DNA of 64,000 nt from Natronocalculus amylovorans (lineage in GTDB: Archaea; Halobacteriota; Halobacteria; Halobacteriales; Haloferacaceae), in the NCBI RefSeq assembly GCF_023638035.1, contig NZ_JAKRVX010000003.1:248001-312000 (forward strand), given 5' to 3'. Made by a program: the position numbers and the translations under genes. Numbering within the stretch: the first letter of the stretch is position 1; each line of letters opens with the position of its first letter. Shown here in pieces: positions 41,939 through 45,403 of this stretch. The notes beneath the pieces are model-generated. The model did not search any database. It was not told the origin of the DNA and saw nothing but the letters and a program-made list of their open reading frames with translations.

Positions 41939-42292
41939 TCAGTCCAGTCCGAGACTCAGTTTCAACGCTTCGTCCACTGCCTCCATCGACTCTCTATCGA
42001 GACTTCCAAGCACCGAGTGAATTCGTTTTTCGATGGAGACAACACGAATTTGATCGAGGCGAATTGAGGAATCTTTCTCAAACGGCGACTCTGCTGCTTC
42101 GACTAATACCTCAAAGGGATAGCCCCTATACGTTCCCGTCGCAGGGGCAACGATAGTCGTACTAGCATTGTTATTACCAACGTCGTTCTGGACGACTACC
42201 GCAGGGCGAGTTTTCTTCATTTCGTGCCCTTCCGCAGGATCAAGCCGTACGATAACGACGTCGCCGCGACGAATTTCCAAGTCCTCGCTCAT
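41939..42292 (-). CDS. MazF/PemK-family toxin (endoribonuclease)
   Basis: 117 residues. The PemK/MazF beta-barrel is clear: IRRGDVVIVRLDPAEGHEMK, KTRPAVVVQND with the conserved Arg-Pro, and STTIVAPATGTY; the C-terminal part is SIRLDQIRVVSIEKR. Members cut mRNA and are neutralised by a partner. The start overlaps the stop of the upstream antitoxin gene (ATGA), the usual antitoxin-then-toxin order. It lies inside the accessory island. Confidence 0.88.
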   Translation of the reverse strand: MSEDLEIRRGDVVIVRLDPAEGHEMKKTRPAVVVQNDVGNNNASTTIVAPATGTYRGYPFEVLVEAAESPFEKDSSIRLDQIRVVSIEKRIHSVLGSLDRESMEAVDEALKLSLGLD

Positions 42293-42528
42293 TTATCCAG
42301 CCCGCCCCACGCCTCGTCCGATGCTTCGTCCCACTCTTCTGCAAGCTCTTCCGCACTCTCAGATGCCTCGCGGTACGCAGCAGCCAGTTCATCTTCGTCG
42401 GGATGGTCAGATTCCACCTCGACGACGGCGACGGTCACACGTTTGTTCGCATATTCCGTTCCGAGATAGATTCGACCTCGGTCATCGGTCTCGTTCGTTC
42501 GGAGGTCTCGAGCATCTACTTTCGTCAT
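42289..42528 (-). CDS. AbrB-like antitoxin of the MazF pair
   Basis: 79 residues. The first half resembles a swapped-hairpin AbrB/MazE domain (DDRGRIYLGTEYANKRVTVA); the second half is a very acidic helical tail (EELAEEWDEASDEAWGGLDK) that probably wraps the toxin. It is encoded directly upstream of the toxin with a four-base overlap. It probably also represses its own promoter, as antitoxins of this class do. Confidence 0.75.
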   Translation of the reverse strand: MTKVDARDLRTNETDDRGRIYLGTEYANKRVTVAVVEVESDHPDEDELAAAYREASESAEELAEEWDEASDEAWGGLDK

Positions 42529-42825
42529 GTTACCGACTTGGACCTATTGCTGAATAAGTGTTGCCCACTATTACCCACGATAGATATTTTCTGTGATTCG
42601 TACCATGGATTTCATCTACTTGAACAAGGTCGAGCAAAGGAACAGTAGATAGCACTAATCGGGTTTCTAAGCGCGTGTAGCGCCAATAAGCAATTAGAAA
42701 TCTTCCGGTTGCTGTTCAGTTGGTTCGTGTTGAACGGATTGAGCAGTAGACCGATCACCAGATCCAGCGGATACTACACTTGCTTGTTGAACAGCAGTAT
42801 CCAATGTAGGATTCTGAAACCAAAG
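42529..42825. other. Gene-free stretch within the island
   Basis: It holds the promoter side of the antitoxin gene and repeat copy B (42605-42655). The remaining 170 bases before the hairpin-rich segment show no reading frame. A 9-base inverted repeat, TGCTGTTCA and TGAACAGCA, lies at 42710-42718 and 42788-42796; its meaning is unclear. Confidence 0.5.
42605..42655 (+). repeat. Att-like repeat, copy B
   Basis: It reads as a 15-residue mini frame ending LNKVEQRNSR, with the core TGAACAAGGT at 42621-42630. Like copy A, it is followed by TAGCAC. The last codons differ from copies A and C, consistent with one small deletion. Confidence 0.6.
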
Positions 42826-43460
42826 TCATGCATGACATCCTCCTCGCCGTAAACGACGAGGTTTCCCCATCCGCGCCCGGGGTCGCACCGGCCATCGCAC
42901 CCTGCAACACGGTGCGTGGGGCCCGGATTGTCCGACGGGGGCAAATTCACCCGGCAAAGCCGGGGTGTCTCGGTTCGTGCGCTGTACGTGAGTCCCGTGA
43001 GGGATATGGCGTATTCGGCGTCCGTGCGAACGCGGTATCTCCTTGCACCGTGCATCCCCGTTGCCCGCAAAGGGGTCGGAGGATGCCCCCGGACGCCGAT
43101 TTCTCCGCGTCTGAGCACGGGTCGTGCCATCGACCTGCGTCACCTTTCTACCACGGTGGTGACGCTCAAGCGCAGTAGGCTCGCGTTTTTGATACCCATC
43201 TTTCGGCGGGTGCGTCGGTGGACGTGAGTCCGGTCGAAGGTATGTTATCGACCACGCCGACGGGAGGAACGCCAAACCACCTCCAGTTTTCCGCGTTGAA
43301 TTACCGGAGAGACGGCCCCCGACTGCATAAAAACGCGGTTTGGGGCGCAAGTGGTCGGATTCACGCCCGTCCCCAGAACGCGCCGCGTTCTGGTGTACGA
43401 ACGAGAGCAGAGCTCTCGTCAACGCCGTAAACGGCGGGACTCTCTCCTTGATTTGGGTAG
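42826..43460. mobile_element. High-G+C hairpin-rich remnant, IS200/IS605-like
   Basis: About 630 bases clearly richer in G+C than the flanks and without a convincing protein in any frame. Perfect hairpins cluster at the two ends: CCTCG/CGAGG around CCGTAAACG at 42851-42870, AGAACGC/GCGTTCT at 43375-43391, ACGAGAG/CTCTCGT near 43401, and CGCCG/CGGCG at 43422-43435. Terminal hairpins sharing a CCGTAAACG core are typical of IS200/IS605-type elements, whose TnpB genes overlap a guide RNA at one end. No TnpB motif is left, so it may be a decayed or non-autonomous copy. Confidence 0.4.
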
Positions 43461-43504
43461 GTCAACCAGAATGTACTTACTTAGTCAGTCTTACTGAACC
43501 TACA

Positions 43505-43675
43505 ATGGCTGGTGCAGCATTACAACGATTTGGTATCCTTACTGTGCTGTTTGGGGGCTTCTCCGTGTTTATTGATCCATCTGGAATGGAGACAGCAGCG
43601 ACGATAATGATGATCGGATTTATTATTGGGATTTTTGGTTTCGGGATTGAGGTAATGTCCACTATGGATAAATAG
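43505..43675 (+). CDS. 56-residue two-span membrane protein
   Basis: ATG at 43505. Two hydrophobic segments (FGILTVLFGGFSVFI and IMMIGFIIGIFGFGIEV) are separated by an SGMETAAT turn, a hairpin membrane protein. It is the last gene of the island, immediately after the hairpin-rich remnant. No family is recognised; it may be cargo or part of the element. Confidence 0.55.
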   Translation: MAGAALQRFGILTVLFGGFSVFIDPSGMETAATIMMIGFIIGIFGFGIEVMSTMDK

Positions 43676-43984
43676 ACCTCCCAGATGAGTTCTGATACTG
43701 GCTACTGTATACCCTGTACTGATCGGTGAATGTCAAGCCAGCCTCTCGATTGGCAACTATCGTTCGTGCGAATGTATGGTGGATTTTGTTGAGTTGAACA
43801 AGGTCGAACAAAGAGAAAATAGGTAGATCTGCATTAAAAACGTGCCAATAGGATTTCATTAGACTCGTTTTCAGACTGCCTCATCCAGTAACAACGTATT
43901 ACCGTAGCTGTAGACCCACAGTACATTACTACAGGAAATCATATTGAAAACAGTTATAACTAGCATACTAGTTCGTTTAAACGA
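43676..43984. other. Gene-free stretch between island and FAD oxidase gene
   Basis: It holds repeat copy C (43776-43826) and the palindrome-rich promoter of the FAD oxidase gene (43953-43985). Nothing else is recognised. Confidence 0.5.
43776..43826 (+). repeat. Att-like repeat, copy C
   Basis: It reads ATG to TAG as a 16-residue frame ending ELNKVEQRENR, identical to the chorismate mutase C-terminus. Most codons differ synonymously from copy A. The core TGAACAAGGT is at 43795-43804. Confidence 0.65.
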
Positions 43985-43985
43985 A
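43953..43985 (+). promoter_or_regulatory. Palindrome stack in the FAD oxidase promoter
   Basis: Three symmetric elements follow each other: GTTATAAC (43953-43960, also a TATA candidate), AACTAG-CATA-CTAGTT (43958-43973) and the perfect 14-base TTCGTTTAAACGAA (43972-43985), whose last A is the A of the start codon. A dimeric regulator bound here would block initiation. Confidence 0.5.
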
Positions 43986-45403
43986 TGTCTACCGATTTGA
44001 CAGTTGGGGCCGCTATCAGCAAGGAGGATCTTACTACGCTCGAATCTGAACTCCGTGGGAGCGTTGTCCGTCCATCGGATTCCGATTTTGACGACCGCCG
44101 ATCGGTGTGGAACGGGGCGATTGACAACTACCCTCTGCTCATCGTGCAGTGTCAGGGTGCAGTTGATGTACTCAATGCACTTGCATTTGCAACCGAACAT
44201 GAGCTTCCATTTTCGATCCGCGGTGGTGCACACCACCAAACCGGTGTGGCGATCGCCGAGGACGGTATTGTCCTCGATCTTTCCTCGATGAATCACGTTC
44301 GCGTTGATCCTGATGAACAACTTGCACAGGTTGGTCCGGGCTGTCGTGCTCGTGATGTTCTCAAAGAAACACAGCACTACGGGTTAGCACCACCAACAGG
44401 CAGTGCAGGTGATGTTGGTGTCGCAGGATCGACGCTTGGCGGTGCAATCGGATGGATGCGCCGAAAGAACGGGCTCGGCATTGATGCACTCCGATCGGTC
44501 GATATCGTTACACCGGCTGGTGAACTCATAACTGCAAGCCCTGAAGAAAATGAAGAGCTATTCTGGGCAGTTCGTGGCGGTGGTGGAAACTTTGGCATTG
44601 TGACGAACTTTGAGTTTGAACTGTACGAGGTCGGGCCGATCGTCGCTGGACTTGGTGTCTTCTATCCTGCGGAAAACGCACCCGCGCTCTTAACAGAGTA
44701 TCGGGAAGCAGCAGCTGAGGCACCTGATGAAGTCACGACGATGGCACTGAAAACACACGTGCCAGACCTCCCTCCGATGCCGGATGCGTTGGTGGGTGAG
44801 GAAGCGGTTGCAATTCTTGGAAGCTACATTGGTGAGACAGAGGCTGGCATGGATGCGCTCCAACCGTTTCGGGAGTTTACCGACCCGCTCATCGATATGA
44901 GCGATCCGATGCCGTACCTCCTCTTACACCAACTCGGAACAATGATGTTCCCGTCCGGTCGAAAGTACAGCCACCGATCGTGTTTTGTTGATGAGCTTTC
45001 GGATGATACGATCTCTGCGGTTGTCGATCAGATGGAGACCGCACCATCTGCTCTCTCTGCGATCGGTATCTGGCAGCTGGGGGGCAAAATTGCAGCGGTA
45101 GGTAGCGACGAAACAGCCTACCCACACCGTCAGGCAGCGTATATGATTACTGTTGAGTCTAACTGGGAATCCGGCGACGATGATGCAAATATTCAGTGGG
45201 CGCGTGGAGGTGACGAACGATTCCGTGAGCTAGGTGGCTATGGTGCATACGCCGGTTTTACAGGGGTTTCCCCGCGCGACTCAGAACCGGTACGTGAACG
45301 AGTCTATGGAAGGAACTACGATCGTCTTCTCGAAATTAAAACTACCTATGATGAGCAAAACATCTTGAATAAAAACGTCAATCTCGACCCGTCATCTGAG
45401 TAG
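43985..45403 (+). CDS. FAD-linked oxidase, berberine-bridge-like
   Basis: 472 residues of the PCMH-type FAD family. The FAD domain shows FSIRGGAHHQTGVAI, where the first His matches the histidyl-FAD attachment site, then GPGCRARDV and TLGGAIGWM. The second cysteine of bicovalent members is absent from the PPTGSAGDVG region. The C-terminus has the BBE signature (YGRNYDRLLEIKTTYD, ending NILNKN). It oxidises an alcohol, sugar or amine with O2 or another acceptor; substrate unknown. It has the CGATCG-rich composition of the backbone, unlike the island just upstream. Confidence 0.86.
   Translation: MSTDLTVGAAISKEDLTTLESELRGSVVRPSDSDFDDRRSVWNGAIDNYPLLIVQCQGAVDVLNALAFATEHELPFSIRGGAHHQTGVAIAEDGIVLDLSSMNHVRVDPDEQLAQVGPGCRARDVLKETQHYGLAPPTGSAGDVGVAGSTLGGAIGWMRRKNGLGIDALRSVDIVTPAGELITASPEENEELFWAVRGGGGNFGIVTNFEFELYEVGPIVAGLGVFYPAENAPALLTEYREAAAEAPDEVTTMALKTHVPDLPPMPDALVGEEAVAILGSYIGETEAGMDALQPFREFTDPLIDMSDPMPYLLLHQLGTMMFPSGRKYSHRSCFVDELSDDTISAVVDQMETAPSALSAIGIWQLGGKIAAVGSDETAYPHRQAAYMITVESNWESGDDDANIQWARGGDERFRELGGYGAYAGFTGVSPRDSEPVRERVYGRNYDRLLEIKTTYDEQNILNKNVNLDPSSE

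Follow-up and report, generated by a model that had tools for sequence, protein, structure and literature searches.

What does a short, hairpin-studded segment without a credible protein gene represent in a haloarchaeal genome: a non-autonomous IS200/IS605-like element, the relic of a guide RNA, or neither? The question was raised by a first-pass annotation of positions 42826-43460 of the window, that is, of the 64,000-nucleotide stretch G000:C14:248001-312000 that was analysed here. The genome consists of 20 contigs and is the one genome representing its genus in the collection used. As detailed below, the segment is a real jumping DNA element in which the ends and a guide-RNA gene have been kept, and the enzymes for cutting and moving it are probably borrowed from full-size relatives in the same genome.

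Boundaries and coding content

A search for relatives combined with an alignment of their ends yielded close copies with common break points. The aligned element copies all stopped at identical end points, and the boundaries deduced from this alignment for the window copy were at most 6 bp away from the coordinates of the first-pass annotation. The element and its ends comprise the following features:

42832-43456, minus strand: tnpB-less IS200/IS605-type element (palindrome-associated transposable element, PATE) of 625 bp, or 570 bp without a nested repeat; from end comparison with 31 other copies
43457-43460, minus strand: CTAC target tetranucleotide at the left junction (CL), which would double as the TAM; shared in this position by most group I copies and by L083 and L084
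43424-43456, minus strand: left end with terminal hairpin, the 3' arm of which is split by the nested repeat; from alignment A1 and from inverted and direct repeats
42832-42861, minus strand: right-end hairpin with the CR tetranucleotide TCAT, where the omega-RNA has its 3' end too; from the alignment, a match to model R3 and a weak HgcC match (both described below)

The two profile windows that fall on the segment had a G+C content of about 0.60, and the remaining profile ranged over 0.41-0.58, in line with the high value originally noted. By tblastn, no tnpB remnant was revealed in the window copy. The longest mechanical open reading frames in the segment were 198 aa (minus strand, TTG start), 118 aa and 116 aa. 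When six copies were compared with two TnpB proteins of the same genome by tblastn, the best similarity had an E value of 0.17; for the window copy the best E value was 0.32, around RSMARPV, within the shared RNA motif. With no room for a transposase, near-terminal palindromes and kinship to IS605 ends, the element has the traits of a PATE.

Two other features were seen in the surroundings. A near-identical 20-bp direct repeat flanks the element (42620-42639 and 43794-43813, about 1.2 kb apart), for which the chance expectation is none, and two overlapping small genes at 41939-42528 on the minus strand resemble, by eye, a MazF/PemK-type toxin with its antitoxin.

Target tetranucleotides

Two kinds of ends were distinguished among the copies. 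In group I, which includes the window element, CTAC precedes the left end and the last four bases are TCAT; group II has TTAC and TCAA, the CL and CR of IS608. In a scripted tally of 32 copies with hand-set boundaries, TTAC/TCAA occurred in 16 and CTAC/TCAT in 10, together 26/32, the other 6 rows being single variants or rows two bases off. The boundaries of L060 and L156 were two or three bases off in this tally, and by eye these copies read CTAC...TTAT and CTAC...TCAT, respectively. No target duplication of 2-8 bp was present in 31 of the 32 copies and one copy had a duplication of 2 bp. The window element thus has the fixed CL and matching CR tetranucleotide (CTAC/TCAT) that characterize IS200/IS605 elements.

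The same pair of tetranucleotides terminates TnpB elements of the same genome, which upholds the earlier proposal of an IS200/IS605-like non-autonomous element. The tnpB elements L083 and L084 both have left ends consisting of CTAC followed directly by CTGAATCAAGGAGAG, and the right ends read GATGTCAT in L084 and L088 and AGATGTCAT in L083. The genome also contains one other long copy of the element itself (G000:C16:12820-13348, 83% identity).

Y1 TnpA is encoded in this genome by four genes, three of them without an inner stop, and one fragment; TNB domain matches number 26, and the L083 and L084 proteins contain both OrfB_IS605 and TNB domains. Judged by these sequences, the genome itself encodes candidate TnpB and TnpA partners that could serve the element in trans. 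The sole left end found beside a tnpA gene, at L064, was of the TTAC kind, not CTAC, and the left-end pattern gave no match at the tnpA loci L061-L063. In this family the choice of target is set by the ends of the element rather than by TnpA, and the TTAC-kind end at L064 therefore need not exclude a TnpA acting in trans.

Hairpins in the single sequence

Perfect hairpins had been claimed at both ends. In window coordinates, the right one (43424-43435) is indeed perfect, and the left one (42842-42861) contains one C/A mismatch on the plus strand; reading the minus strand turns this mismatch into G-U, so that all 8 pairs hold in RNA. That the two end hairpins have a sequence in common was correct, CCGTAAACG being present in both (direct repeat D1). 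As is characteristic of IS200/IS605 ends, these subterminal hairpins lie in the same orientation and there are no terminal inverted repeats. The two longest perfect hairpins (43373-43393 and 43401-43419) are part of a nested 55-bp repeat and not the element's own ends.

The segment contains 2 perfect hairpins of at least 7 bp (loops 3-8), where the mean is 0.32, a count also reached in 13 of 293 other window stretches. The fold energy of the minus strand at 42832-43368 gave z = -1.89. Taken from the single sequence, the hairpin excess is weak; it was the comparison with relatives that made the observation solid.

Homology of the inner RNA to TnpB guide scaffolds

Fifteen divergent relatives, the window element included, were aligned, and RNAalifold on 13 of them gave a many-stemmed structure. 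Two covariance models were used: R1, for the best-conserved 166 nt, built from 13 PATE sequences, and R3, built from 16 tnpB-linked RNAs only and extending up to the right end. They led to the following features:

42832-43137, minus strand: predicted omega-RNA (reRNA/sotRNA) scaffold, homologous to the tnpB 3' end plus right end (RE); R3 match over model positions 1-175
42972-43137, minus strand: conserved multi-branched RNA domain of 166 nt (model R1), with 43/45 pairs intact in the window
43052-43114, minus strand: about 63 nt of extra helices, in PATE RNAs and missing from tnpB-linked RNAs; from cmsearch alignment with L083 and alignment A6
43137-43165, minus strand: 8-bp stem adjoining the scaffold; inverted repeat I13 and alignment by eye
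43326-43334, minus strand: candidate TATA-like AT-rich box (putative), with TTATG/TTAAG near there in many copies by eye
42814-42831, minus strand: predicted guide, the flank directly past TCAT; its guide role is deduced by analogy with TnpB biology

Searched against the 64-kb window, R3 produced one good match (43137-42832, minus strand, 41.6 bits, E = 4e-9; next E 0.037), and this match ended exactly at the right end (42832) deduced from the element boundaries. At E <= 1e-3, R3 also matched 45/47 other loci with an R1-type RNA, missing L147 and the PATE site of L160. A search of the whole genome with R3 gave 28 matches at E <= 0.1, and here the window element was split into two pieces and reached only 29.7 bits. 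The extra helices aside, RNAalifold placed the branches of R3 in the same order as those of R1. Among other strong R3 matches in the genome were two shorter PATE-like elements with a compact 84-nt domain (G000:C15:89429-89604 and G000:C18:33026-33201, 99.5 bits), as well as G000:C18:143149-143329 and G000:C15:2-165 (137.7 and 131.7 bits).

In the reverse direction, R1 was run on 17 of 25 tnpB loci from the genome and on three tnpA loci. Matches were obtained at the 3' ends of L083, L084, L085 and L088 (E 8e-5 to 3e-4). The 52-bit match at L075 was due to a short PATE beside its tnpB, the second match there having E 0.091, and L074 gave E 0.24. Strong R1 matches were full-length, and a second, weaker class measured 97-98 nt. 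Among 20 such short matches from other genomes, 18 lay in frame within the tnpB C-terminus; in the remaining two the longest open reading frame was in another frame, one of them at a contig end. L173 and L177, both among the 20, look like the same insertion in two genomes. These matches at tnpB 3' ends and C-termini indicate that the RNA is the omega-RNA scaffold of this TnpB clade.

Homology of the inner RNA to the TnpB guide scaffold is thus well supported by comparison of sequences in both directions (R3 on the window, R1 on tnpB loci). There is no overlap in cis with a tnpB gene, which makes this a solo RNA and not a standard omega-RNA locus. The 8-bp stem is swapped whole between subfamilies (GCGTCACC/GGTGACGC versus GCCTGCCC/GGGCAGGC, by eye). 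The predicted guide 18-mer had no second exact match in its own genome, and three more places in the genome matched it with 2-3 mismatches, compared with one for the reversed control.

Compensatory changes

In the alignment of 67 R1 matches (52 of them distinct, the 13 source sequences of R1 included), which was fitted to the model, 95.7% of cells formed standard pairs as compared with 30-48% after sliding by 1-3 columns. Changes on both sides had occurred in 27 of the 45 pairs, and cells changed on both sides numbered 290 compared with 107 ± 8 after shuffling, with none of 500 shuffles reaching as high. To control for this fitting, we used the window row to transfer the R1 pairs to a plain MAFFT alignment of 34 relatives outside R1. 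In this unfitted alignment of held-out relatives, 84.2% of cells paired (28-47% when slid), and for 15 rows of like length the value was 96.6% (38-47% when slid). The cells with G-U outnumbered those with A-C by 214 to 36 in the fitted and by 144 to 27 in the unfitted alignment, an excess which implies that the RNA strand is the minus strand of the window. The approximately 63 extra nt form helices 3-5 of R1, and helices 3 and 4 were the richest in pairs with compensatory changes.

It is therefore very probable, as far as aligned sequences can tell, that RNA structure is under selection in this family. The part of the first-pass annotation that pointed to a guide RNA stands, given that reciprocal covariance models link the inside of the element to TnpB guide RNAs, and relic is probably the wrong word, since the RNA structure has been kept by compensatory changes over many divergent copies.

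Distribution of relatives

When 148 genomes of the family were compared, close copies turned up in G041 (two long and one partial), G126, G047 and G019. At E <= 1e-3, R1 matched 218/391 genomes of the class, in 64/86 genera and under nine family labels; matches of at least 60 bits occurred in 34/391 genomes with seven family labels (hand count, among the matches listed). In the phylum sample 43/392 genomes were matched, and none of these carried a label more distant than the same order. When the element-sized stretch at 50 R1 loci was compared with eight TnpB proteins, 49/50 showed no tnpB similarity at E <= 1e-3, the sole exception being L041 with a weak inner tnpB match (E 5e-4). A decayed tnpB gene was rejected as an identity for the segment, on the basis of these 49 loci and the lack of a remnant in the window copy.

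When plasmids were searched with the window element by BLASTN, 28 records matched in part, none with a coverage of 80%, and the 25 matches listed covered 9-19% of the query, at its left end. In a search of phages, one element copy matched one record over 43 bases and one group II copy matched none. The sole viral contig of a pattern scan had no R1 confirmation at E <= 1e-6. Some matches of that scan were bacterial, e.g. in Actinomadura and Corynebacterium, by pattern only.

The joined flanks of 27 copies were searched for an open reading frame across the join, and by eye no clear uninterrupted gene was seen on both sides; in this joining the boundaries of L134, L150 and L039 were two or three bases off. 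The left flank of L144 reads like a tnpB-type protein, seemingly with no continuation in the right flank. Among 52 genomes of the genus of L111 that were searched for an empty site with the joined L111 flanks, 27 had some match, none across the join.

A nested 55-bp repeat

One further feature distinguishes the left hairpin of the window copy:

43369-43423, minus strand: double-hairpin repeat of 55 bp in the left hairpin; absent from six aligned sister copies (alignment A1)

The two most perfect hairpins of the first-pass annotation come from this repeat. The repeat belongs to a family of 55-57 bp (GTTGACGAG...GGGGAC, two side-by-side hairpins; 16 copies and many relatives), members of which sit, in several elements, at that very point of the left hairpin and, in others, in the right hairpin, and comparison of L084 with L083 showed one lying in frame in tnpB. 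A model of the repeat gave 30 matches at 25 places in the genome; 8 of the 25 lay either no more than 1 kb from a TNB domain or in or next to a PATE, while random placement on these contigs gave an expectation of 1.7 (0/10000 trials as high). By splitting the left hairpin, the repeat may impair TnpA binding in the window copy.

The SMR-A repeat of Haloquadratum is, like the nested repeat, short and palindromic and inserts into near-terminal palindromes of PATEs and IS605 elements. As described there, SMR-A is about 110 bp long with inverted ends, whereas the nested repeat has 55-57 bp, consists of two hairpins and also occurs in frame in tnpB (PMC3119063). The length of about 110 bp and the prominent inverted terminal repeats of SMR-A were not found in the nested repeat.

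Relation to known systems

Dyall-Smith et al. (2011) described PATEs in Haloquadratum walsbyi as elements that lack a transposase and have IS605-like palindromes; the same study reported small mobile repeats that target them (PMC3119063). The window element agrees with these PATEs in having no transposase gene, near-terminal palindromes and no target duplication, in its haloarchaeal host, in being multi-copy and in being a target of small repeats. It differs in that the Haloquadratum elements are presented in the relevant passages as transposase-free or end-only remnants, with no guide RNA named, while the window element contains a conserved omega-RNA (PMC3119063). The omega-RNAs of haloarchaeal tnpB genes have been termed sotRNAs, and those represented in Rfam (sot0042 and sot2652) are like the window RNA in having their scaffold at the tnpB 3' end plus RE, core helices and a 3' hairpin; as described in the passages concerned, they overlap tnpB, whereas the window RNA is solo and has about 63 nt of extra helices (PMC12558985). 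The sot0042 and sot2652 models gave no match to the segment at E <= 1.

Two other reported elements come close. The virus HRTV-DL1 carries a PATE of 489 bp with a strongly transcribed part, likened by its authors to a non-coding RNA of the sotRNA kind (PMC10544981). This element (OP630574.1, about 598-1090; L225) has CTAC- and GATGTCA-type ends and a weak R3 match at its right end (20.5 bits, E 0.0017), and it resembles the window element as a haloarchaeal PATE. It differs in belonging to another PATE family without an R1 match, and the section describing it gives no RNA family, structure or guide (PMC10544981). In the bacterium Halanaerobium hydrogeniformans a PATE-like copy of about 271 nt consists of a tnpB tail and RE (PMC7290912). 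It combines LE, tnpB end and RE without genes and would therefore, like the window element, retain the scaffold region; it differs in being one copy with 58 nt of tnpB left, and the passages concerned do not discuss an RNA or a family (PMC7290912).

Rfam searches of the window at 42300-44000 gave no family at E <= 1 except HgcC (RF00062) below threshold, and in six relatives only HgcC and the sot models matched. Another known RNA family was rejected on these grounds, and an IStron-like self-splicing role was considered as well, with the Rfam searches as its check. The HgcC scores were 24.1 bits for the window, 37.6 for L031 and 33 for L078, below the gathering threshold of 50 bits. Such sub-threshold matches recur at the right ends of PATEs and of some tnpB elements of the genome (L031, L078, L084 and others), and HgcC itself may, by this similarity, be a TnpB-type guide RNA.

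Among the literature matches listed, titles and abstract openings contained no statement of haloarchaeal PATEs with a conserved omega-RNA. Meers et al. (2023) reportedly mention PATE-like elements, and Altae-Tran et al. (2021) are said to have noted omega-RNAs located away from the genes of their nucleases; we therefore make no claim of a new kind of element. The window element is a PATE, a type known since 2011, with a free-standing and enlarged omega-RNA.

Possible mechanism and alternatives

In the IS200/IS605 family, TnpA cuts and joins the single-stranded ends after the CL and CR tetranucleotides. The RNA that directs TnpB has a scaffold reaching as far as the right end, and the flanking sequence serves as its guide. 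We propose, with a probability of about 0.8, that the segment is a non-autonomous PATE of this family whose cargo is a free-standing omega-RNA and that would use both enzymes of its full-size relatives in trans. Its identity as a tnpB-less element with an omega-RNA is nearly certain, the chances of a guide function in trans are about even, and expression, mobility and guiding in trans are what we infer from the comparisons. The RNA would start near the left end, where the AT-rich box lies, and as a minus-strand transcript would continue past the right end into the flank, where the sequence from 42831 downward would become the guide. It would then load a TnpB made elsewhere in the genome, such as that of L083 or L084. 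A TnpA made elsewhere would excise the element and join the flanks; the rejoined site would then be cut beside the CTAC target by TnpB carrying this guide, and repair templated by a sister copy would restore the element. With TnpB and TnpA both supplied in trans, the element would thus be served by both enzymes of its full-size relatives. Several points speak against this reading: neither search for an empty site found one, the sole left end beside a tnpA gene is of the TTAC kind, the transcript of the HRTV-DL1 PATE, a member of another family, was reported on the strand opposite to the prediction (PMC10544981), the left hairpin is split, the single-sequence fold energy is unremarkable and L041 has a weak tnpB match.

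Some of these points would suit a dead deletion product of a TnpB element, with a leftover omega-RNA in a copy that neither moves nor guides and conservation that merely reflects other, active copies. The repeat in the left hairpin, the 2/45 pairs broken in the window copy and the fact that the genome has just one more full-length copy, 83% identical, would fit such an origin, and yet a plain deletion explains neither the absence of a tnpB remnant nor the extra covarying helices, missing from the tnpB-linked copies examined, nor the spread of such elements over many genera; we regard it as unlikely. Less probable still is that the RNA is a decoy which binds TnpB and lowers cutting by autonomous elements, so that the element tames or competes with its relatives. 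Its scaffold core is the same as in tnpB-linked RNAs and the extra helices could alter binding or cutting, but the right end and the guide position, which a decoy does not need, are kept in nearly all copies, although TnpA would need them.

The structure could also have been kept as single-stranded DNA, for TnpA or for replication, and not as RNA. IS200/IS605 ends do act as single-stranded DNA hairpins; against this explanation, the excess of G-U over A-C on one strand points to RNA in both alignments, and the domain is distant from the ends and homologous to an RNA, and we consider it very improbable. That the hairpins arose by chance in a high-GC sequence would be compatible with the weak single-sequence tests (hairpin count and fold energy) and is refuted by the comparative data, i.e. 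the homologues, the matching ends and the covariation, which leave it a negligible probability.

On the most far-reaching reading, haloarchaea would carry widespread guide-RNA-only elements, in which an omega-RNA freed from tnpB grew new conserved helices and uses TnpB and TnpA in trans. This generalization is tentative, its odds being somewhat below even. Were it true, one nuclease would work with many guides at dispersed loci, every one directed to the site of its own insertion. The enlarged scaffold would show how an omega-RNA evolves once its letters are no longer shared with a gene, and a similar step has been proposed for CRISPR guide RNAs in the discussion of an earlier study (PMC10097598). 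PATEs have been described as transposase-less elements moved in trans; if what they contain is a selected guide RNA, the service of TnpB to non-autonomous elements would become testable in haloarchaea, since the full-size partners are present in the same cell.
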